64,000 nucleotides of DNA, taken from positions 1-64,000 of the forward strand of contig CAOJUB010000001.1 of the NCBI GenBank assembly GCA_948443805.1, written 5' to 3'. The notes under the pieces were generated by a model. The model saw only the letters and a list, made by a program, of their open reading frames with translations, did not search any database and was not told the DNA's origin. A program made the position numbers and the translations under genes. The stretch's first letter is position 1; the number at the start of each line of letters is the position of its first letter. Positions 21,249-56,580 of this stretch are shown one piece after another. This stretch comes from an uncultured Clostridia bacterium. GTDB lineage: Bacteria; Bacillota; Clostridia; Oscillospirales; UBA644.

Positions 21249-21265
21249 TTTCCGAAAAAAAATTT

Positions 21266-21620
21266 GTAGCCGGCGCAATCGCGGGAGCAGTGCCGAAAGG
21301 CCGCTTCTGAGGAAAGTCCGAGCTCCGATGGACAACGATAACGGATAACGTCCGCCGAGGGCGACCTCAGGGAAAGTGCAACAGAAAAGAACAGCGGCTT
21401 TGCCGCAATGGTGAAAAGGTGAGGTAAGAGCTCACCGGGAGGGTGGAGACGTCCTCCGTCTATGTAAACCCTATCGGGAGCAATACCGGATATAAGGCTG
21501 GGGGATTTCCCCGAACATGTCCATAGTGCCTTACAGGTAGCAGGAGGCAGCCGGCAACGGCTGTCCCAGATAGATGATTGCGGGGATGAAAATCTCACAG
21601 AACTCGGCTTACAAGGCTGC
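21266..21620 (+). ncRNA. rnpB: RNase P RNA, type A
   Basis: The conserved core is clear: the 5' block with GAGGAAAGTCCGAGCTC near 21311, the ACAGAAA block near 21382, and the 3' block with AGATAGATGATTGC near 21570 and ACAGAACTCGGCTTAC near 21598. The outermost P1 pairing is gtagcc with ggctgc. RNase P RNA is the catalytic part of the ribozyme that removes 5' leaders from pre-tRNAs. The ends are set by P1 and may be off by a few bases. A terminator follows at once. Confidence 0.95.
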
Positions 21621-21633
21621 AAAACAGAAATAA

Positions 21634-31800: not shown

Positions 31801-32790
31801 TCAGCTTTTTACAAACTGGACTTTGGAATCGTTGGAATCAGGGGAAAGAACATCGAATTTATATCCCCGTTCCTTCAGCCCTTCAATGATGGCCGGCAAA
31901 GCCTCAACGGTTGTCGGTTTGGCGTTGGTGTCATGCATTAAAATGACCGACTGCCGCAGGGCGGTATCCAAAACATTTTTTGTCAGTTTTTCCGGGGCGA
32001 GCGGCGTCTGAGAAGAGGCGTCTCCGGAGTCGACATTCCAGTCGATATAGGTGATTCCCTTTTGGTTAAGATAATCGATTGCCGGGCTGATGATATTTTT
32101 GTTGTAATTTCTGTGAATGGTGTTGTTGGAGCCGCCGGGAAAACGGAAAAGCGTTGGCCTCGTCCCTGTGGCGGCTTCAATTTTATCATTTAAAGTCTCT
32201 ACTTCATTGATAAACCCGTCGAGAGAAGAATATACGCTTTTCCAGTCGTGGGACGCGGTGTGATTGCCCAGTGCGTGGCCGCCGTCGGCAATTTTTTTAT
32301 ATAATTCCTCGTTGCCTTCTTTCCAGTTCGGGAAAAACGTTGCTTTTACGTCGTATTTGGCTAAAATTTCCAAAATTTTTTCTGTGTTTTTCGAAACGCC
32401 GTCGTCAAAGGTCAGATAGGCGACTTTCGGCCCTTTATACGGTATGCCCGCATTCTGGTAGCCTTCGATCTGTTTGTTTGCCTCTTCCAGTTTCTTTTCC
32501 GCTTCTTCTTTTTGCTTCACCAGGGTTTCGTTCTGCGTTTTTGCGTCCTGCAGCAGCTGATCTTTTTCTTCGATATTTTTTTGCGTTTGGGTCAGCTGCT
32601 CCTGCATTTGTCTGATCTGCTGACTGGTTTTCGCTGTGCTGATTCCGAGCCCAACAGCCAGTGCGACAATTAAAATCAGGCAGAAAAAGGTAGACAGGCG
32701 GAAAATGGCAAGTTTTCTTTTCAGCCGCTTTGTTTTTGCCTTGACCCGCAGTCTTGCTTCTTCCGAGGGTTGTCCGGGAATTTGGTTCAT
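31801..32790 (-). CDS. Membrane-anchored polysaccharide deacetylase (CE4)
   Basis: 329 residues from ATG 32790 (AAGGAAG upstream); a TTG-started extension to 32898 lacks a ribosome binding site. A basic cytoplasmic N terminus, a transmembrane helix (about 35-55) and a coiled coil (about 58-110) lead to a NodB domain. Catalytic motifs are intact: TFDDG, the metal-binding HTASH, RFPGGS, DWNVDSGD and ILMHD. It probably N-deacetylates peptidoglycan or a surface glycan. It has its own consensus promoter. Confidence 0.9.
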   Translation of the reverse strand: MNQIPGQPSEEARLRVKAKTKRLKRKLAIFRLSTFFCLILIVALAVGLGISTAKTSQQIRQMQEQLTQTQKNIEEKDQLLQDAKTQNETLVKQKEEAEKKLEEANKQIEGYQNAGIPYKGPKVAYLTFDDGVSKNTEKILEILAKYDVKATFFPNWKEGNEELYKKIADGGHALGNHTASHDWKSVYSSLDGFINEVETLNDKIEAATGTRPTLFRFPGGSNNTIHRNYNKNIISPAIDYLNQKGITYIDWNVDSGDASSQTPLAPEKLTKNVLDTALRQSVILMHDTNAKPTTVEALPAIIEGLKERGYKFDVLSPDSNDSKVQFVKS

Positions 32791-32931
32791 GTTTTTTTCT
32801 TCCTTTCCGCCGCCGCTGGGAGTATGGCGCGTTTCCGACGGCTGTTCCTGTTGTGCTGAAGGTTGTTCTATAAATAGGGTTTTATCCCGATATCTCAATG
32901 TTTTTTCTGTTTTTCAGGAACTCTCTTCCTT

Positions 32932-33253: not shown

Positions 33254-33282
33254 TTGCATTTTTATAAGTTTTCTGCTATACT
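33254..33282 (+). promoter_or_regulatory. Promoter of the GH2-like lipoprotein gene
   Basis: TTGCAT at 33254-33259, 17-bp spacer, TATACT at 33277-33282. The start codon is 63 bases downstream. Confidence 0.7.
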
Positions 33283-33344: not shown

Positions 33345-36300
33345 ATGAAGAGATTTCTGAGAATTGCATTACCGGCTATTCTTATCGGGCTTCTCGCTGT
33401 TTCTCTTTGTTCCTGCTCCAGCGGCGGGCTCAAGGAAAATAACGACTGGCAGAATAATATCAGCGCCGTTTCTCAGGCAAAAGAGGCTGCGCATGCGCCG
33501 ATCGTTTCTTATGTGAACGATGAGGAAGCCAAGAAAGCGGACATCCGTTCTGCTTCCGGTTACCTGTCTCTGAACGGAGAATGGGATTTTGCCCTTTATG
33601 CAAACAATGGGGAAGTCCCTGCGGATTTCGCTGCGAAAGGCGGCGTAAACTGGGATAAGATTTCGGTTCCCTGCAACTGGGAGCTGCAAGGCTACGGCAC
33701 GCCTCTTTACACCGACAATACGGTTTACCCCTGGGCAAAAGAGGTGACTGCGGCGAAAGTTTCCGATTCGGATAACCCCGTCGGTCTTTATCAGAGAACT
33801 GTGGAGATTCCGTCCGAATGGGACAAAAAAGAAGTCTTTGTGAATTTTGACGGCGTTGCTTCTGCGTACTATGTTTACGTCAACGGCGCAATGGTCGGCT
33901 ATTCCGAAGACACCTACACTTCGCATGATTTCCGGATTACCGAACATTTGAAAGCCGGTCAGTCCAATACCATTGCGGTGAAGGTTTATAAATTTGCCGA
34001 TTCTTCCTGGATTGAGGCGCAGGATTCTATGAAACTCGGCGGTATTTACAGAGACGTTTATCTGTATGCCACGCCGCAGGAAAGAATCCAGGACGTTCAG
34101 CTTTTAGTGAACCTGAATGAGGAAATGACCACGGGTCTTGTGGAGACCACGGTTGATATCCAGTCTTTTAAGGACAAGGACGCGGAAAGCGTTACCCTTC
34201 AGGTTCTGGCTGCCGACGGCAGTGAGTTTATTGCTGAAAAAGCCGTTGGCAATAATGTTGCTTATGGAAAAGACAAGGCTTCTAACGGCGCGCTTACCTG
34301 CACGGTAAAAGGCCGTATCGCTCTTTCCGAGCCCCACTTGTGGAGTGCGGAAGATCCGTATCTGTATACGGCGATTATTCGTCTGAAAAAAGCGGACGGT
34401 AGTGTGATCGACACCGTCAGTCAGAAATTCGGCGTACGGGTTGTTAAACTGGCAGCCGATGATAACGGCAATCAGTCGTTGACGGTCAACGGCGTTCCGG
34501 TTGCTTTGTATGGAATTAACTATAACGAGCATTCTGCCGTGACCGGCGCGTATGTTTCCTATGAAGAGCTGGAAGCCGACGTAAAACGTCTCAAAGAACT
34601 GAACGTAAACGCCGTTCGTTCCGCCGGCCGGCCGTTGAGCATTGATTTCCTGAATCTCTGCGATGAATACGGTTTGTATGTAATTGACGATATGAATCTT
34701 GCCAGCAAACCGTCCTCCAATCTCGGCGATCAGTCGATCCCCGGCGATCAGTCGATCTGGCAGGGCGCAATCATCGACCGCTTGACAAGCGTCGTGGAGC
34801 GGGATAAAAATCACCCGGCTGTCATTGTGATGGCAATTGGGTCGGAATCCGGTTCCGGTTCGGAATTTACCATTCTGAAAAACCATTTGCAGGGCGCCGA
34901 CCCGTCCCGTTATATCATGTATGACGGCATGGACGACGCTTCGGATATTCTGGTAGAAGTCAATCCTGATTTTAACGCCGTTTATGAATATCTGAACAGC
35001 GGCAACACGAAAAAACCGATGATCCTTCACAATACGGCTCTTGGCCTTTTGAACGGCGCCGGCAATTTGGCGACGTATACGGATTTGATCGCAGAAAACG
35101 ATCGGGTTCAGGGCGCGTTCCTTGGCAATTATATCGATTATGCGATTTATTATCCGACCGATATTTCCGCTGTACGCGATACTTTCAAAAATACTCCGTA
35201 TGCGGAGAATATGAATTTGTATCAGCTCACTTACAGCGGCACCGGCGCTTGGGGCGAGGCAGAAAAATATGCTTCCGGTTCTGCGGCGCTTTCGGGTATT
35301 GTTTCGGCGGACAGAACCGAGCAGTCCGATGCTGCGGAAATCAAACGGGCGTATTCGCCGATTGTGATTACAGCGGAAAATCTTTCAGCCGGACAGTTTA
35401 AGGTTGAAAACCGGAATATGTTCCGGAATCTGGAAGATCATTATGTCATTGAATACCGGATCAGCCGCGGTGCGCAGGAAGTTGCCGCCGGTACAGTTGA
35501 AGGCCTTTCGGCTGCTGCTGGACAGAGCGCTTCGTTCACCGTTCCTTATGGCGGGCTGGAAGCCAACGCGGAATATTTCATTGACTTTACCGTGAAATAT
35601 AAAAATGCGCCGGCATGGGCGGCTGCCGATACGGTCGTCACCGCGGAACAGTTTGATATCACGGCTTTTGCTTCTATGCCGAAAAACGCGGTATCTTCGA
35701 CTTCCGGTGCTGCGTTCAACACCACGATTTTTGTTACGCCTGAAGTAAAGACGTCCGCAATTGACGCGGCTTCCGGTGTATTCTATATTTCCAATAATTC
35801 GCTGACCGATCTGAATTCTATTTTCTCTCTTTCTTATAAAGTATATGAAGAAAATGGGCAGGATCCCTATGTGCAGCAGGAAACCGGAGAAATCTGGAGA
35901 TCTCCCGGTAAGATTGTTTATGCCGAAGGAACGCTTGACGGATTCAGTATTCCGGCAAAGACTTCTTACGGCAGAATCCAGCTTCCGTATACGGTCAATG
36001 CCGTCAGCGGCGGCGCTTATTCGGTCGAGATTATTCTGACTACAAAAGCGGCGGTCGGCAATGTACCTGCGGGCTATGAAATGAAATATACCTTTACGGA
36101 ACAGTCTCTGGGCACGCCGATTCCGTTTGCTGTCGACGAGGCCAGAACGCCGGTTGCGGTAATCGATCCGAAGACCAAGAAACCGATGACCGATGAGGAA
36201 TCCGGTTTGGTTATTATGAGTGGTGGCGATCCGCTTCCCACCGCGACGCCGGTTCCCGAAGGCGAAGAAGAAACCCGGATCGAATATGATCCGTTCATCA

Positions 36301-38345
36301 CGGTAGATAACGGAAACGTTCATCTGGAAGTAAATTCCGATACCGGTTTGGTTTCTGACTTTACGGTCAATGGGGTTCAGATTCTGACCAAAAACGGAAG
36401 AAACGGATCGTTAATCGGAAACCTGTACCGTCATCCTACTGGCGGCGACCTCAAGAGCGAGGTTACCGATGCCGAAAATCTGGATAATATGCTGAATCTC
36501 AGTAAAAACGCCGATAATAAAATCCTTGACGGCGGCGTTGACGTTCAGGTTGTTTCTCCGGATCATCTTCGGTTCACCATGAAGTATGTAATGGTTTCCT
36601 ATCCGTATGAGTCTTTCCGGACCTATACGCTTGATACCGAATATACGGTCGTTTATGATTTGTACGGCAATGGTGAACTGGTTGTTTCGGTTCTGTATGA
36701 CCCGTCCTTGTTCAGCGGTGATATTCCGTTTGAAATTTCCAATATTTTAACGCTTGCCGACGGTTACGAAACCATGTCCTGGTATGGCCGCGGCCCGGGC
36801 GAGAATTATGCGGATAAACTCGGCGCTTCCCGGATCAGTGTTTATAAAGATATCAAAGTTTCCGATCAGATTGAAGATTATCTGTATCTGACGGGCGGTT
36901 CTGATAAAACGAATGTCCGCTGGGCTTCTTTTGTCAATAAAGAAGGCAACGGGGTTTTGATCAGCAGCGATACCGGAAACTTCTCGATGAATGTTTCGAA
37001 TAACTATCCGTGGGATACGGCGGATTATGCAAGAGATTCCGGTGCGAAGAATACGATTGTCCGGGTGATCGGCGCTTCAAGGGGCGTCAATGCCGGCGAT
37101 ATTACCAATTCAAAATATGCGGGTATTGCGGCCTTTGTAGACCCCGGAAAAGCTTATAGCTTCACCTATAAACTTTCTCCGCTGACGGCGTCTTCCAATG
37201 CGGAACAGAAAGCGGCTGAAAGAATCGACGGAACGGTTCTTCCGTCTACCGGAACGGTAACGGTCAATTCCGGCGATATCTTTGCTTTGCAGAATGCCGC
37301 CGATGCAACGCTCTTCCTTTCTTCGACAGCCGATGGGGTTGCCTTGAAAGAAGGGTACGGTAGCAATTCTCAGGTCTGGATCCGAGAGGATGCTTCCGAT
37401 ATTGGTATCAAGGGCGCGTTCCGCTTGAAGAATCTTGCTACCGGCGAGTATCTCACTCCGGTTGCCAGCAATTCAGGCGAAGCTCCTTCTCTGGAAATCG
37501 GTTTGGGCCAGTATCACGGCCAGATGTGGCAGAATTTCGTTACCGACTCGAACAACGAGCTCAGTGCGGTAAACATTACCATGTCGGTCAATGCCATGGA
37601 TGTAAAAAATAAATATTATATGGGTTCCCGGGTCGCTTTGAAAGCGAAATCCGGTAAATCCGAAGCCTGCTGGACGTTCCATCCCGTAGAGGGTGTAACC
37701 GAGGGATATATCCTGGAAAACATGTCTACCGGTTATTATCTGTCTGCAGTCGGCAGCATCTCTTACCGCGATCCGGTTGTTCAGGCTATGGCTGAAAGAT
37801 ACAGAAATTACAGCCCGTCTATCGACTGGACGATCTACGATGAGATTATCAGCGCGCAGCCGCAGTCGGCCGCTACCGAGGAGTGGGTTCCGACTTCCGG
37901 AAGCGTTACGCAGTGGCAGCTGCTGCCCAGCGCTTCTCAGAAATGGCAGTTTGTCGCGGCGGCCGGCGGATTCCAGATTGTGAACACCACAACAGGAAAC
38001 GCTCTGACTATTGCCGACGGAAAACTGACAGAAGCTGCAGCAAGCGGCGCTTCCAATCAGATATGGTCTGTCAACAGCGACGGAGGTCTGGTTTCTATCG
38101 TCAATCCCGAGAGCGGTCTTGCGTTGGCTTCTGCGGTTGAAAAGATTAAAATGACGCAGCAGGAAATGGATGCCAATTTCATTACCGATGAATCGGAAGC
38201 TTACTTTAACCGGGTTGTTCTGGATGTTAGCGCCTTCAATCATCTTCCGAATCAGCTCTGGAATTTGGCGGACGATTCTCAGCTGAATATTAATATCGAA
38301 GCTGGAAGCAACTGGTTTGACGTGACCGCGTCTTCCGTCAGCTAA
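33345..38345 (+). CDS. LacZ-like GH2 lipoprotein with degenerate active site and C-terminal beta-trefoil lectin-like domains
   Basis: 1666 residues. A lipobox (LCSC, Cys about 23) anchors it outside the membrane. Residues about 70-620 follow the GH2 beta-galactosidase order: sugar-binding domain (NWELQGYGTPLYT), immunoglobulin-like domain, TIM barrel. About 980-1300 matches the LacZ small-chain domain (WYGRGPGENYADK). The tail (about 1300-1650) has repeated ricin-type segments (QIWS, QLWN, QKWQF). The acid/base Glu is kept (E501 in IGSESGSG), but the nucleophile position of LILCEYAHAMGN is MILHNTALGLLN, giving N563, and the substrate His of SHYPN is G428. Hydrolysis is therefore doubtful; glycan binding is the likelier role. 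Own promoter and terminator. Confidence 0.85.
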   Translation: MKRFLRIALPAILIGLLAVSLCSCSSGGLKENNDWQNNISAVSQAKEAAHAPIVSYVNDEEAKKADIRSASGYLSLNGEWDFALYANNGEVPADFAAKGGVNWDKISVPCNWELQGYGTPLYTDNTVYPWAKEVTAAKVSDSDNPVGLYQRTVEIPSEWDKKEVFVNFDGVASAYYVYVNGAMVGYSEDTYTSHDFRITEHLKAGQSNTIAVKVYKFADSSWIEAQDSMKLGGIYRDVYLYATPQERIQDVQLLVNLNEEMTTGLVETTVDIQSFKDKDAESVTLQVLAADGSEFIAEKAVGNNVAYGKDKASNGALTCTVKGRIALSEPHLWSAEDPYLYTAIIRLKKADGSVIDTVSQKFGVRVVKLAADDNGNQSLTVNGVPVALYGINYNEHSAVTGAYVSYEELEADVKRLKELNVNAVRSAGRPLSIDFLNLCDEYGLYVIDDMNLASKPSSNLGDQSIPGDQSIWQGAIIDRLTSVVERDKNHPAVIVMAIGSESGSGSEFTILKNHLQGADPSRYIMYDGMDDASDILVEVNPDFNAVYEYLNSGNTKKPMILHNTALGLLNGAGNLATYTDLIAENDRVQGAFLGNYIDYAIYYPTDISAVRDTFKNTPYAENMNLYQLTYSGTGAWGEAEKYASGSAALSGIVSADRTEQSDAAEIKRAYSPIVITAENLSAGQFKVENRNMFRNLEDHYVIEYRISRGAQEVAAGTVEGLSAAAGQSASFTVPYGGLEANAEYFIDFTVKYKNAPAWAAADTVVTAEQFDITAFASMPKNAVSSTSGAAFNTTIFVTPEVKTSAIDAASGVFYISNNSLTDLNSIFSLSYKVYEENGQDPYVQQETGEIWRSPGKIVYAEGTLDGFSIPAKTSYGRIQLPYTVNAVSGGAYSVEIILTTKAAVGNVPAGYEMKYTFTEQSLGTPIPFAVDEARTPVAVIDPKTKKPMTDEESGLVIMSGGDPLPTATPVPEGEEETRIEYDPFITVDNGNVHLEVNSDTGLVSDFTVNGVQILTKNGRNGSLIGNLYRHPTGGDLKSEVTDAENLDNMLNLSKNADNKILDGGVDVQVVSPDHLRFTMKYVMVSYPYESFRTYTLDTEYTVVYDLYGNGELVVSVLYDPSLFSGDIPFEISNILTLADGYETMSWYGRGPGENYADKLGASRISVYKDIKVSDQIEDYLYLTGGSDKTNVRWASFVNKEGNGVLISSDTGNFSMNVSNNYPWDTADYARDSGAKNTIVRVIGASRGVNAGDITNSKYAGIAAFVDPGKAYSFTYKLSPLTASSNAEQKAAERIDGTVLPSTGTVTVNSGDIFALQNAADATLFLSSTADGVALKEGYGSNSQVWIREDASDIGIKGAFRLKNLATGEYLTPVASNSGEAPSLEIGLGQYHGQMWQNFVTDSNNELSAVNITMSVNAMDVKNKYYMGSRVALKAKSGKSEACWTFHPVEGVTEGYILENMSTGYYLSAVGSISYRDPVVQAMAERYRNYSPSIDWTIYDEIISAQPQSAATEEWVPTSGSVTQWQLLPSASQKWQFVAAAGGFQIVNTTTGNALTIADGKLTEAAASGASNQIWSVNSDGGLVSIVNPESGLALASAVEKIKMTQQEMDANFITDESEAYFNRVVLDVSAFNHLPNQLWNLADDSQLNINIEAGSNWFDVTASSVS

Positions 38346-38360
38346 TGGCTTTATCATAGA

Positions 38361-38400
38361 AGAACCGGCGGGAGGATAATTTCTCCCGCCGGTTCTTTGC
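38361..38400 (+). terminator. Terminator of the GH2-like gene
   Basis: A perfect 14-bp stem (agaaccggcgggag at 38361-38374, ctcccgccggttct at 38383-38396), followed by a T-rich tract. Confidence 0.85.
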
Positions 38401-42437: not shown

Positions 42438-42579
42438 ATTGCTAAACTATATTGAATATTAATATTGTAGCATAGATTTTATGATTTGTCAACCGGAAAG
42501 TGATTTCCGGGAAAAACGCGGATTATTTTCGGCGGCAGTTCGGGCGCGGATCTCGCGGTAAAAGAAAGGAAAACTTTTT

Positions 42580-43467
42580 ATGGCTCCTTATGTTATCAGT
42601 TGCTGTTCTACAGCCGATCTCCCGGAAGAATATCTGAACCGCCGGAATATTTCGCATATTTGCATGCATTTTTCTCTTGACGGCTGTCAGTATCAGGATG
42701 ATCTCGGCCGGTCTGTACCGTTCGATGCTTTTTATGATGCGATGCGCGCCGGCGCCGAAACCAAGACGTCGCAGGTGAACGCCGGGGAATTTATGGAATA
42801 TTTTTCCTCTTTTTTGGAGCAGGGAAAAGATATTATTCATGTTTCTATGTCCAGTGGGTTTTCCGGTACGTATAATTCGGCGATGATTGCAAAAGAACAG
42901 TTGCAGGAACAGTTTCCTGACAGAAAAATTTATATTTTCGATTCTCTCTGCGGTTCCTGTGGCTATGGCATGGTGGTCGACCGTCTGGCCGATCTGCGCG
43001 ACGCCGGGAAGACTATGGAGGAATGCCGCGCCTGGGCGGAAGCGCATATTCTGGATGTAAACGCCTGGTTTTTTGTTTCGGATCTGAAATATTTGATCCA
43101 GGGCGGCAGAATTTCCAAGACGGCAGGCGTTCTTGGTTCTCTTTTGCAGATTTGTCCGCTGATTACCGCCGATACGAAGGGAAAACTGGTTTCCAAACAT
43201 AAAATCCGGACAAAAGCCAGGGCGATGGCTGAATTGGTAAAAAAAATGGAAGAAAGCGCTTTGGGCGGTTTGCATTATGACGATGTCTGTTTTGTCTGCC
43301 ATGCGGGCTGTCCTCAGGACGCCCGACAGGTTGCGGATTTGATTGAAGAAAAGTTTCCGAACCTCGCGGGAAAGGTGCAGATCAACAGCATCGGCACCAC
43401 CATGGGAAGCCATTGCGGCCCGGGAACGGTAGCGCTTTTTTATTGGGGAGAAAAGAGAACCGATTAA
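42580..43467 (+). CDS. DegV-family fatty-acid-binding protein
   Basis: A 295-residue two-domain DegV protein (EDD fold). Typical blocks: an N-terminal ISCCSTADLPEEYL, ETKTSQVNAGEF, the lipid-contacting MSSGFSGTYNSA, and GGRISKTAGVLGSLLQI. Relatives bind fatty acids and in some Firmicutes deliver them to the FakA kinase. No fakA is nearby. AAAGAAAGGA precedes ATG 42580. It might be read from the promoter at 42193. Confidence 0.93.
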   Translation: MAPYVISCCSTADLPEEYLNRRNISHICMHFSLDGCQYQDDLGRSVPFDAFYDAMRAGAETKTSQVNAGEFMEYFSSFLEQGKDIIHVSMSSGFSGTYNSAMIAKEQLQEQFPDRKIYIFDSLCGSCGYGMVVDRLADLRDAGKTMEECRAWAEAHILDVNAWFFVSDLKYLIQGGRISKTAGVLGSLLQICPLITADTKGKLVSKHKIRTKARAMAELVKKMEESALGGLHYDDVCFVCHAGCPQDARQVADLIEEKFPNLAGKVQINSIGTTMGSHCGPGTVALFYWGEKRTD

Positions 43468-43507
43468 ATTTGTTGCTTCTTAAGCCTGAAAATGAATGAT
43501 GAAAAAG

Positions 43508-43540
43508 AAAAGCCGGCGGAATTTCCGCCGGCTTTTCTTT
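43508..43540. terminator. Bidirectional terminator between convergent genes
   Basis: A 13-bp stem (aaaagccggcgga at 43508-43520, tccgccggctttt at 43524-43536), T-rich on both strands. Confidence 0.88.
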
Positions 43541-43596
43541 TCTTCCGGTATAAAAACCAAGGGAAGAATTCTTATGAAAATGAGGAGTGATCGTTT

Positions 43597-44640
43597 TTAT
43601 TTTTTCTTTTTCAGCAAAACGGCTGCGGCCGCTGCCAGCGAAAGCATCGCCGTTGCGCCGAAAAGGTCGCCTGCTGCGGTGTGGGGGTTGCCTTTGCCGG
43701 TGGCTTCTTTGAGAACCACACCGCAAACCGTGCAGGTCTGCGCTTCGGTTTTGGTGGCTTCCGCGCCTGGGGTGTGGCCGAAAAGTTCGCATTCGGTTTT
43801 TCCGCAGTTGCCGCAGCGGTGGTTTTCATCAAAATTGTGATAACCTTTTTCTTCCGGATGTCCGGGAGCGATAACGGCTCCGCAGGCAGAACAGTTTCTG
43901 TCATAGCAGACAATGTCATCACTTACTGTTACTGGGTGCGCGTTCGGGTTAACATCCCCTTCGATTGCACCGCAAATCCTACAGGTTTTGCGGGCGATAC
44001 AGGTTGCGTCTTGCCATTCATGTTCGCAGTCGTAATCTGGTTCTTCCGGCCATTCAATAAAATAGTTGGGGTGGGCTCGCTGTACTTTCGGGTTTGATTC
44101 TAATTTTTTTATCGCGTCAAGCACATTTTGTTTTCCTGCCGGAGATATTGTCAAACAAAGTTTTCTGGCAAAATGGCTTGCTGAAAAGAAAATTTCTCTT
44201 ACGTCTGTACATTCAATTTCCGGGAAATCTTCAACTGTAAAAATCTCTTTTTCCTGATTGTATTTTCCTTGAATGGAAACGATAATTGTGTCTTCCGGAA
44301 AATTGTCGTCAATTGTCGCATTGCAGAGTTCCTTTTCAGCCTCCGCATAGTCAATCCCGGAATGCTTCTTCAACCGATCGATAGCATTATTACGATTGTT
44401 CAGCGCTTCTTCCTCCCGTGCAGACAGCGTAAAAAGGAAAAAACCGGGAACATCGTCTTCTTCTATTGCGATGATTTCAACATCCGGAAAATCTTCCGGC
44501 GTAAACCGACTTTCAGGTCGGTATGCGTGGACTGAAATCCGCACGTTGGGCGGATATTCATAACCTTTTGCAAAAGTGGTCAGGCCGAACAAAGATAAAA
44601 TCATTGTCAGCAATAATAAAAATGCCAATGTTTTTTTCAT
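43597..44640 (-). CDS. Secreted surface protein with CxxC repeats and C-terminal anchor
   Basis: 347 residues from ATG 44640 (GAGGAG upstream). Signal peptide (about 1-22); two similar domains (about 25-95 and 105-195, each with an F-[ST]-x-EDFP motif), then a cysteine-rich stretch with several CxxCG knuckles (CRICG, CSACG, CGNCG, CTVCG) as in the doubled-CXXCG surface repeats of Clostridia. The C terminus has GNPHTAAGD, a hydrophobic helix and KKKK, which resembles a sorting signal. Function unknown, probably cell-wall associated. Confidence 0.75.
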   Translation of the reverse strand: MKKTLAFLLLLTMILSLFGLTTFAKGYEYPPNVRISVHAYRPESRFTPEDFPDVEIIAIEEDDVPGFFLFTLSAREEEALNNRNNAIDRLKKHSGIDYAEAEKELCNATIDDNFPEDTIIVSIQGKYNQEKEIFTVEDFPEIECTDVREIFFSASHFARKLCLTISPAGKQNVLDAIKKLESNPKVQRAHPNYFIEWPEEPDYDCEHEWQDATCIARKTCRICGAIEGDVNPNAHPVTVSDDIVCYDRNCSACGAVIAPGHPEEKGYHNFDENHRCGNCGKTECELFGHTPGAEATKTEAQTCTVCGVVLKEATGKGNPHTAAGDLFGATAMLSLAAAAAVLLKKKK

Positions 44641-44657
44641 GGTAAAACTCCTCTGTT

Positions 44658-45078
44658 TTACTTTTTGTATTCTTTTTTCATGATCCATTCATTGAATTTA
44701 ATCACATTATTTATCGGTTGGAAATAGTGGAGATGCGGCGCATCGTAAAAGTAACTGTATTCCGTGACTATGCCGGACTTCGATGTTCCGTTTATCCGGA
44801 ATGTATCTAAGGATATTACATTGTCCGAAACATAACCGGTACTGGTATACCAGGTTGTCCAGTTATTAAATGTAGCTCCTGTAGAAGAAAAAAGATGGAT
44901 TGACATATTTGTTGTGCTATACCGGTACATGGTAACGACATCGTCTTTCCCGTCTCCGTTAATATCTCCTACCGAGAATCTGTCTTTTACATTATTTAGA
45001 TCATAACCTGTGCTGACCGGCCTCCAGGCCTGCCAGTCGTCAAGCCCTTGTCCGGCAGAACGAAAACATGTTTTTCAT
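44658..45078 (-). pseudogene. Remnant of a secreted FG-GAP/VCBS-repeat protein
   Basis: An open stretch from about 45074 to 44658 encodes the end of an FG-GAP repeat protein: VGDINGDGKDDVV is followed by another repeat-like segment and a stop. The only start with a ribosome binding site (ATG at 45078, after AAAGGGTGAAG) is in another frame and stops after 12 codons. The gene therefore looks internally deleted and frameshifted. A short in-frame protein from the ATG at 44930 (90 residues) cannot be excluded. The remnant ends 18 bases before the next gene and has a promoter at 45197. Confidence 0.65.
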
Positions 45079-47142: not shown

Positions 47143-47344
47143 ATACGCGGAATCGGAATACGGCCGAGATATGGTATGTGTACATGAGATAGTGGCAATG
47201 TCGGAGGGAATCCTGCCGAAATGGATTGCCCAGCCGGGGTTCCGGAAAACCAGAAGATAACGCCGCCGTTTTTTACCGTTCGGGGCGTTTGGTAAATCGG
47301 ATCAGATAAATTGCATGATAAATAATGGAGGATTGGAGACCGAT

Positions 47345-49354
47345 ATGAAAGTAGAACTTTCCGTTTTGAACCTTCCCGGCGCATCGATCGAGCCGGAGAA
47401 CCCCCTGCCTCTTTTCCGGGACCGGCATCCCGACGGATACAGCGGAAAAGACGATACGCTGACGGAGGAAGAGCAGACGCTGCTGAATTATGAAGCGAAT
47501 TTCAGAATTCTTCCGTACTGTATGCAGGATCGCTATACCCGCGAGAAAAAACCGATGCAGTTAAAAACGGTGATTCTGGAAAACGACAAACTGAAAGCCA
47601 CTTTTCTTTGCGGATACGGCGCAAAGCTGCATTCTCTGGTCAAGAAGGAAACCGGGAAGGAAATTCTGTTTTCCAATACTGTGATCCAGCCCGGGAATTT
47701 GGCAATCCGCAATGCGTGGACTTCCGGCGGAATCGAGTGGAATATCAGTCAGCTGGGGCATTCCTTTACCACCTGTGAAAATATTTTTATGGCTAAAATG
47801 ACCGATAAAAAGCTGGGGGAATTTGTCCGTGTTTTTGAGTTCGAACGGCAGAAGGGACTTTTTTGGTACATTGATTTTTATCTTCCGGAAGGTTCGGAAC
47901 TTCTGTTTGCCTATGTGCGGATTGTCAACCCGAACGACACTGAGTCGCCCATGTACTGGTGGACGAATACGGCGGTTCCCGAAAGCGATAAGACCCGCCT
48001 TTTTTCTAATGTTTCCCGTTGTCTGGTTCTGAAAAACGGCGCGTGGACGGCAACCGATCTTCCGCATCATCCTGCGGTGCCCGGCGTGGATATTTCCTAT
48101 TCGAAAGGGTTTCCTTTTTCCAACGAATTCTTTTTCCAGACCCCGAAGGGAACCTCTATGCCGTGGGAAGCGGTCGTTAATGAAGACGGGACGCTTTTTT
48201 GCGAGGCGTCGACCGAATTGCTGCGATACCGGAAAATGTTTTGCTGGGGAAGCCATCAGGGCGGCCAGCATTGGCAGGAGTATCTTTCCGAGCCGAACAA
48301 GGGGTATTATGTCGAAGTGCAGGCGGGAATGGCGCCGACACAGCGCCACGGGCTGAAAATGCCGGCGAATACGGTATGGGATTTTGTGCAGGCGTTCGGT
48401 GAGACGGTAGCGCCGGAAGAAAGCCATTCGCCTGATTGGAACAAGGCGAAAAAAAAGGTTGAAAAAGCGGTTAAAAAGCATATCAGCGAGAAAAAATTAT
48501 ATAAAATGCTGGAAAAAGGCAGAAGCCTTTCCGAAAAGACGCCGTCGGATTTTCTGAATTTCGGCAGCGGGTGGGGCGCGCTGGAGACCGAACGGCTGGC
48601 ATTGGAAGAAAAAAGCGTGCCGCAGGGATTTTATTTCCCTTCTTCTTCTATGGGCGAACCGCAAATGGCATGGCTTGGTTTGCTCCGGAACGGCGTGCTT
48701 TATGAAAAAGAAGAACATGATCTTCCTTTTTCCTGGATGGTGCAGCCCGCATGGCGTAAAATTCTGGAAGAAAGCCTGGAAAAACAGGAAAACCGAAATT
48801 GGTTTTCGCTGATGCATCTGGGCAATATGCTTTATGAAGATTTTCAGGAGGAAGCCGCAGCGGCTCTGTGGGAGGCTTCGCTTGAAAAGAAACCGACGCA
48901 GTGGGTTTACCGGAATCTTGCCGTGAAAGCCGATCAGTTCGGAAGAAAAGAGCAGGCGCTGAGTTATATGGAGAAAGCCTATGCGCTGGAAAATTCTTTC
49001 TGCGACGCCGGTTTTTATGAAGAATATTTCAAATTGCTTTCCGAACAGGGCGATTATGAGAAAATCTGGCAGGCGATTCAGACAATGCCGGTTTCATTCC
49101 AGAAATTGCACCGGATGCAGATTATTGCCGGCCAGGCGGCGTTGGCAACCGATAACCTTTCTTATGTTGAACCGATTTTTGAGACCGAAAACGCCGTAAT
49201 CCGCGAAGGAGAATTGACGCTTGTGGATATGTGGTACCGTTATTCTGCAAAAAAATTGGCCAAGGAACGCGGTGTGGAATATTCCGACGAACTGTATGAA
49301 GAAGCGAAAAAACTCTGCCCGCCGCCCAAGAATGTGGATTACCGGATCAATTAA
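47345..49354 (+). CDS. DUF5107 / TPR protein, mutarotase-like
   Basis: 669 residues from ATG 47345 (GGAG upstream; an ATG at 47315 lacks one). About 50-370 resembles DUF5107, a galactose-mutarotase-like beta-sandwich expected to bind sugars (TSGGIEWNISQLGHS, WWTNTAVPES, FCWGSHQGGQHWQEYLS). The last third has tetratricopeptide-like helices (YRNLAVKADQFGRKEQALSYMEKAYAL). No signal peptide, so cytoplasmic. Likely a carbohydrate-related protein; the reaction is unknown. Its last codons (PPKNVDYRIN) are the first unit of the tandem array that follows. Confidence 0.8.
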   Translation: MKVELSVLNLPGASIEPENPLPLFRDRHPDGYSGKDDTLTEEEQTLLNYEANFRILPYCMQDRYTREKKPMQLKTVILENDKLKATFLCGYGAKLHSLVKKETGKEILFSNTVIQPGNLAIRNAWTSGGIEWNISQLGHSFTTCENIFMAKMTDKKLGEFVRVFEFERQKGLFWYIDFYLPEGSELLFAYVRIVNPNDTESPMYWWTNTAVPESDKTRLFSNVSRCLVLKNGAWTATDLPHHPAVPGVDISYSKGFPFSNEFFFQTPKGTSMPWEAVVNEDGTLFCEASTELLRYRKMFCWGSHQGGQHWQEYLSEPNKGYYVEVQAGMAPTQRHGLKMPANTVWDFVQAFGETVAPEESHSPDWNKAKKKVEKAVKKHISEKKLYKMLEKGRSLSEKTPSDFLNFGSGWGALETERLALEEKSVPQGFYFPSSSMGEPQMAWLGLLRNGVLYEKEEHDLPFSWMVQPAWRKILEESLEKQENRNWFSLMHLGNMLYEDFQEEAAAALWEASLEKKPTQWVYRNLAVKADQFGRKEQALSYMEKAYALENSFCDAGFYEEYFKLLSEQGDYEKIWQAIQTMPVSFQKLHRMQIIAGQAALATDNLSYVEPIFETENAVIREGELTLVDMWYRYSAKKLAKERGVEYSDELYEEAKKLCPPPKNVDYRIN

Positions 49355-56390: not shown

Positions 56391-56419
56391 TTGACAGCGT
56401 GCGGAAAATATGATATACT
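56391..56419 (+). promoter_or_regulatory. Promoter of rplJ-rplL
   Basis: TTGACA at 56391-56396, 17-bp spacer, TATACT at 56414-56419. Confidence 0.9.
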
Positions 56420-56425
56420 GTCTCA

Positions 56426-56580
56426 GTCCTAAGACAATAGGTGCTTTCGCTTAAACATACCTATCGAGGAAGAGTTTCTATTATTTTTCTGGAACAAACA
56501 GGTGATTATTGCTCTTTCATAACGGTAGTTGTGAAAGAGCTTTTTTTGGAAAGCGCTGATTTTATATTCCGGGAGGTGAA
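56426..56580 (+). ncRNA. Ribosomal L10 leader with attenuator
   Basis: The leader before rplJ contains the L10 leader core: AAGACAATAGGTG near 56431 pairing with ACCTATCGAGG near 56460. A terminator-like hairpin follows: gctctttca (56511-56519), tgaaagagc (56532-56540), T7 (56541-56547). L10(L12)4 binding to the core is known to control such operons in Firmicutes; the hairpin indicates premature termination. Confidence 0.85.

Follow-up and report, generated by a model that had tools for sequence, protein, structure and literature searches.

A LacZ-like lipoprotein with an eroded catalytic site, a probable pseudoglycosidase of one Clostridia family

The window, i.e., the 64,000-nucleotide stretch of DNA from an uncultured Clostridia bacterium analyzed in this study, harbors a 5-kb gene whose product resembles LacZ but appears to lack the catalytic nucleophile. 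This raises the question of whether the encoded protein still represents a glycosidase and, if not, in which role it has been retained. A first-pass annotation, made from the nucleotide sequence, had interpreted the protein as a lipid-anchored pseudoenzyme of glycoside hydrolase family 2 (GH2) acting as a surface glycan receptor.

Gene, domain architecture and genomic neighborhood

The open reading frame starts with ATG and encodes 1666 amino acids; it has no internal stop codons, in line with the intact frame previously noted, and is present as a single-copy gene in the 1.81-Mb genome, which is 98.9% complete. The features described below are compiled in Table 1. Within the deduced protein, Pfam searches identified all five LacZ domains in order, namely Glyco_hydro_2_N (residues 75-244), Glyco_hydro_2 (247-365), Glyco_hydro_2_C (377-673; 2e-46), LacZ_4 (685-772) and Bgal_small_N (989-1249; 2e-26), followed by RicinB_lectin_2 with its best stretch at residues 1531-1595. 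These matches and the predicted fold correspond to the domain order and fold of GH2 proteins and corroborate the order and the LacZ small-chain domain recognized earlier. The NCBIfam LacZ models matched strongly, yet remained under their cut-offs (e.g., 655 vs. 999 bits), and the nearest solved structures by sequence are those of Thermotoga maritima and other LacZs. Furthermore, residues 786-930 were aligned to domain 4 by hhalign (probability 96.5, E 1e-9) and modelled as a beta-sandwich. The N-terminus shows the signal peptide and lipobox cysteine of bacterial lipoproteins (LCS-C24), and C24 is invariant among the orthologues, which agrees with the proposed lipid anchor.

At the C-terminus, at least two ricin-type segments had been postulated. 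Two beta-trefoils were indeed modelled, featuring QxW motifs at residues 1343, 1393, 1532, 1572 and 1637 as in R-type lectins and CBM13 modules; in the window protein, however, the second trefoil alone exceeds the Pfam threshold, while RicinB_lectin_2 was matched in all 15 orthologues searched (15/15). Foldseek searches with the C-terminal model mostly returned two-trefoil lectins at global TM values <0.35, a poor superposition that supports the repeat fold alone and not the arrangement of the trefoils.

Regarding the claim that the gene possesses its own promoter and terminator, the terminator downstream of the stop codon is strong, whereas the promoter shows a weaker consensus, though TTGCAN/TATA(A/C)T elements are similarly placed 5' of several orthologues. 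The gene looks monocistronic. Its divergently oriented neighbor encodes a NodB-type polysaccharide deacetylase related to PdaB/PgdA that scored under equivalog cut-offs. Several other genera likewise carry such a deacetylase gene no more than about 3 kb upstream, with a prolyl-tRNA synthetase gene lying between the two, whereas g7 does not. The remaining neighbors are housekeeping genes, which rules out a polysaccharide-utilization locus, and no Rfam match to an RNA leader was obtained near the gene.

Elsewhere in the window, clear Rfam matches were obtained for the RNase P RNA (class A; 21263-21627) and the ribosomal L10 leader (56410-56555). A 679-aa DUF5107 protein is encoded at positions 47315-49354 (+), and two ORFs of 296 and 363 aa without Pfam or NCBIfam match are located at 42523-44688 (-). 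Genes for SpoIIGA and a sigma factor at 45-47 kb point to a probably spore-forming organism.

Table 1. Features of the pseudo-GH2 gene and its immediate surroundings, in window coordinates.
Feature	Position	Strand	Basis or remark
NodB-type polysaccharide deacetylase, divergent upstream neighbor, N-terminal TM and coiled coil	31801..32898	-	domain match
Probable promoter, TTGCAT-17 nt-TATACT	33254..33282	+	sequence; weaker consensus, under consensus-scan detection
Whole gene, pseudo-GH2 lipoprotein of LacZ architecture	33345..38345 (stop codon included)	+	domain matches, orthologues, dN/dS
Lipoprotein signal peptide, lipobox L-C-S-C24	33345..33416	+	sequence; C24 invariant among orthologues
LacZ domains 1-2 (GH2 jelly-roll, residues 75-244; immunoglobulin-like, 247-365)	33567..34439	+	Pfam
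TIM barrel, residues 377-673, eroded catalytic site	34473..35363	+	Pfam, alignments, model
G428 codon (LacZ H391 position)	34626..34628	+	Gly in all orthologues sampled
Loop IPGDQSIWQ, residues 465-473, beta-3/alpha-3, former catalytic face	34737..34763	+	near-invariant in clade, absent from active LacZ
E501 codon (former acid/base, E461)	34845..34847	+	E, D or Q among orthologues
N563 codon (nucleophile position, E537), end of barrel strand beta-7	35031..35033	+	N/S/D/E among orthologues
LacZ domain 4, residues 685-772	35397..35660	+	Pfam
Second copy of LacZ domain 4, residues 786-930	35700..36134	+	hhalign, model
Acidic/proline linker, residues 931-984, low-confidence in model	36135..36296	+	model, sequence
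LacZ domain 5/small chain, residues 989-1249	36309..37091	+	Pfam
Two beta-trefoils, about residues 1312-1480 and 1519-1655	37278..38309	+	model, QxW motifs
Intrinsic terminator, 18-bp stem	38359..38398	+	strong, after stop codon

Catalytic residues and predicted structure

Catalytic residues were mapped by MAFFT alignment with E. coli LacZ as reference for alignment and numbering. The acid/base residue E461 is retained as E501, and the nucleophile E537 is replaced by N563 (MILHNTALGLLN). When profiles of 16 orthologues and of 22 active LacZs were aligned (hhalign, E 9e-143), the nucleophile block was ungapped. Further substitutions concern H357 (N394), H391 (G428), E416 (A453), H418 (K455), Y503 (N540), H540 (L566), W568 (G594, within FLGNY), F601 (A647) and N604 (S650). 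Accordingly, none of the Mg ligands E416/H418 and of the substrate residues H357, H391, Y503, H540, W568 and N604 is left in the window protein. Four assignments of the first-pass annotation, i.e., E501 as acid/base, the exchange of the nucleophile for Asn563, the loss of the His at Gly428 and the altered aromatic block FLGNY, were thereby confirmed; the other losses listed had gone unnoticed there.

A search for orthologues sharing the nucleophile substitution, as had been suggested, showed that the Glu is mostly lost throughout the clade, but that the residue replacing it is not always Asn. At positions 461/537, the window protein features the pair E/N and its orthologues E/S, D/D, D/N or Q/E, with Asp at both positions in the g7 orthologues; a complete LacZ site was found in none of the orthologues examined. 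Glu occupies the nucleophile position in a single orthologue (L033, uncultured Clostridia BRZ_P bin18), which carries Gln as acid/base, as if, judging from these residues, both losses had occurred in differing order across lineages. This Glu was rejected as a working nucleophile because of the Gln and the absence of the galactose residues, which are also missing from two orthologues with Glu one residue earlier (L034 and L045), so that a neighboring carboxylate was likewise discarded. True LacZ paralogues within the family retain the catalytic residues.

Among the 45 barrel positions conserved to at least 95% in active LacZ, those with a structural role are mostly kept by the clade (24 of 34), those with a catalytic role never (0 of 11; Fisher 3.5e-5), a division that follows known LacZ roles and was drawn after the table had been inspected. 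Conservation of the former first shell amounts to 0.51, compared to 0.67 for the remaining barrel (permutation p = 0.006), and is far under that of positions equally conserved in active LacZ. Residues Y393, G428, D449 and P456 and the loop IPGDQxxWQ (465-473) have become newly fixed in the clade. On the former catalytic face, the carboxylates E395 and D449 are invariant, and D201 is retained in most members. The barrel side from beta-1 to beta-4 is preserved, whereas that from beta-5 to beta-7 drifts and is the least conserved.

An AlphaFold2 model of residues 30-1229 (pLDDT 82, pTM 0.79), whose input alignment held active LacZ sequences and was thus biased towards a LacZ-like backbone, contains the eight strands of the barrel; beta-7 terminates in N563, and E501 closely follows beta-4. 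The best PDB matches to the model are all LacZ (1DP0: TM 0.81 by target length, rmsd 5.0 A). The proposed comparison with 1DP0, based on topology and alignment and not on distances, placed no Glu at the nucleophile site, and no carboxylate contributed by another segment lies where beta-7 ends in the predicted topology. With the nucleophile and nearly all first-shell residues lost clade-wide, the earlier designation as a pseudoenzyme is upheld: based on alignments and the predicted model, the protein very probably no longer works as a retaining glycosidase of the LacZ type. Residual or changed hydrolytic activity is conceivable in view of the retained E501 and the Asp/Asp pair of the g7 orthologues.

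Occurrence, phylogeny and selection

All 20 genomes examined from the GTDB family contain a copy or fragment of the gene, whereas no match was obtained in the other 374 genomes of the order. Applying the C-terminal 442 aa as query, matches were obtained in 19/20 family genomes, while in the 20th (G013) a contig end cuts the gene; one of the family members (G002) is represented by a C-terminal fragment only, on a short stretch. The 59 relatives examined include full-length homologues from the same GTDB family (identity about 38-42%), in which separate true LacZs of about 1000 aa are encoded alongside them. Profile searches in further class and phylum samples yielded no full-length match. The named copies, located by an alignment-based scan of genome contigs after a single-protein query had given no match, originate from metagenome-assembled genomes (MAGs) of uncultured Clostridia, many of them from the gut of goat, cattle and water deer.

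Phylogenetic analysis of 64 GH2 proteins united the pseudo-LacZ copies in a single clade (SH-aLRT 100), with the LacZ paralogues of the family branching elsewhere. Among active enzymes, two giant secreted LacZs from the same order (L147 and L148; support 88) are closest to this clade, but the exact sister group is unsure, since the clade stem is long (1.12) and the tree represents a quick run without bootstrap.

Pairwise dN/dS values (Nei-Gojobori, closest pairs, whole gene) ranged from 0.04 to 0.24, and are approximate because many pairs approach saturation at synonymous sites; the TIM barrel belongs to the most tightly constrained regions. These data strongly support intense purifying selection on the gene, which, together with the occurrence of the gene across the family, substantiates the earlier statement that it appears maintained. 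It combines glycosidase homology with the loss of essential residues and with maintenance by selection across species, as expected of a pseudoglycosidase. Moreover, the window's genome and a second one that is 96% complete (G008) contain the pseudo copy only and no active LacZ, as judged by the LacZ small-chain domain, indicating that the gene outlives active LacZ.

Apart from the pseudo-LacZ gene, a single GH2-like gene was found in the window's genome (L002, G000:C2:93929-97612; 579 aa); it encodes domains 1-2 and a TIM barrel that scores under the Pfam cut-off (18.8 vs. 21 bits). Judging from its sequence, it may represent another divergent or degenerate GH2.

Possible function and relation to known systems

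Considering all results, the best overall explanation, which we regard as probable, is a lineage-fixed bacterial pseudoglycosidase kept as a non-catalytic surface lipoprotein. In this view, a LacZ-type GH2 protein present in the ancestor of a single Clostridia family would have ceased to act as a beta-galactosidase. Its descendants would be tethered to the outer face of the membrane and may provide a platform for binding or for structural support, the most likely partner being a glycan of the envelope or of the extracellular space. Such a partner would be contacted via the jelly-roll domain 1, which shows the highest conservation of any domain across the clade, via the newly fixed beta-2/beta-3 loops (RSxGxxxS; IPGDQxxWQ) and/or via the tandem trefoils, not via the old galactose pocket. 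A non-catalytic binding or scaffold function at the cell surface is likewise rated as reasonably likely. It is suggested more tentatively that the protein constitutes a family-marking core envelope protein, either as a former LacZ turned receptor or scaffold or as an enzyme with its active site moved to the beta-1 to beta-4 face. If this applies, its function would differ from lactose cleavage to such an extent that the lineage retains the protein despite the loss of real LacZ.

Three other readings were weighed. Decay of a pseudogene or an assembly artefact could account for the missing catalytic residues, but was rejected as practically negligible, since intact frames occur in many independent MAGs, dN/dS is well below 1, and lipobox and neighborhood are conserved. 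The old galactose pocket might also bind a glycan without cutting it, in the manner of chi-lectins and aided by the R-type trefoils, as D201 is present in most members, the trefoil fold carries QxW motifs, and YKL-39 exemplifies pseudoglycosidases that retain glycan binding (PMC7828330). Such a receptor is nevertheless rather unlikely: the first-shell residues H357, H391, H418, Y503, H540, W568 and N604 are all lost, most of these positions vary freely, and the erosion of the pocket relative to the remaining barrel implies that there is probably no conserved sugar site. R-type sugar sites typically carry an Asp in each active lobe. Inspection by eye of the repeats located by QxW, with divergent lobes lacking this motif lying outside the comparison, revealed S, T, A or G instead of the canonical sugar-contacting Asp. 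No sugar site is recognizable in either the old pocket or the trefoils, and the locus contains no carbohydrate-utilization cluster; the glycan-binding surface receptor envisaged in the first-pass annotation is a plausible conjecture rather than a finding.

Neofunctionalization, in which catalysis would have shifted to new residues of the same barrel face, such as E395, D449 and E501 together with the IPGDQ loop, and would act on a glycan other than a beta-galactoside, is considered improbable as well. The two invariant carboxylates could, from their sequence conservation, serve a relocated active site, and the near-invariant clade-specific loop and the conserved beta-1 to beta-4 loops of the catalytic face fit this scenario. 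However, the GH2 acid/base itself varies between E, D and Q, conservation is lowest in the barrel half from beta-5 to beta-7, and retaining chemistry in clan GH-A is known to require carboxylates on both beta-4 and beta-7.

To our knowledge, bacterial pseudoglycosidases have seldom been documented. In the preferred reading of a non-catalytic surface lipoprotein, a whole clade has lost catalysis while preserving the fold, as predicted, and the gene is present in every member sampled, including a near-complete genome without active LacZ. The clade thus makes the purpose of a dead glycosidase a directly testable question. Annotation pipelines will probably label the pseudo-LacZ as beta-galactosidase, and it should not be counted as a lactose or galactan utilization gene in gut metagenomes.

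Compared to the LacZ enzymes of E. coli and T. maritima, the window protein shares the five domains in order, about 29% identity across the first four domains and TM values of 0.78-0.81 by target. It differs in lacking the nucleophile, the Mg site, the transition-state histidines and Trp568, and in possessing an extra domain 4, an acidic linker, two trefoils and a lipid anchor. In contrast, the giant secreted LacZs L147 and L148 have intact catalytic residues, a Sec-type N-terminus without lipobox and different accessory modules (laminin-G, NPCBM, FIVAR, F5/8-C and InlB repeats). The C-terminal part resembles CBM13 and R-type (ricin B) lectins in its beta-trefoils and QxW repeats, but not in the canonical Asp. 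In the open-access literature searched, no LacZ-type GH2 pseudoenzyme of this kind was found described. The closest parallels are the GH18 chi-lectins, klotho (GH1) and CyRPA (GH33), whose glycosidase scaffold was likewise kept by selection after catalysis was lost and which act in surface or extracellular roles (PMC7828330); these, however, are animal or protozoan proteins of other GH families, whereas the window protein is a bacterial GH2 member whose old pocket is unconserved.
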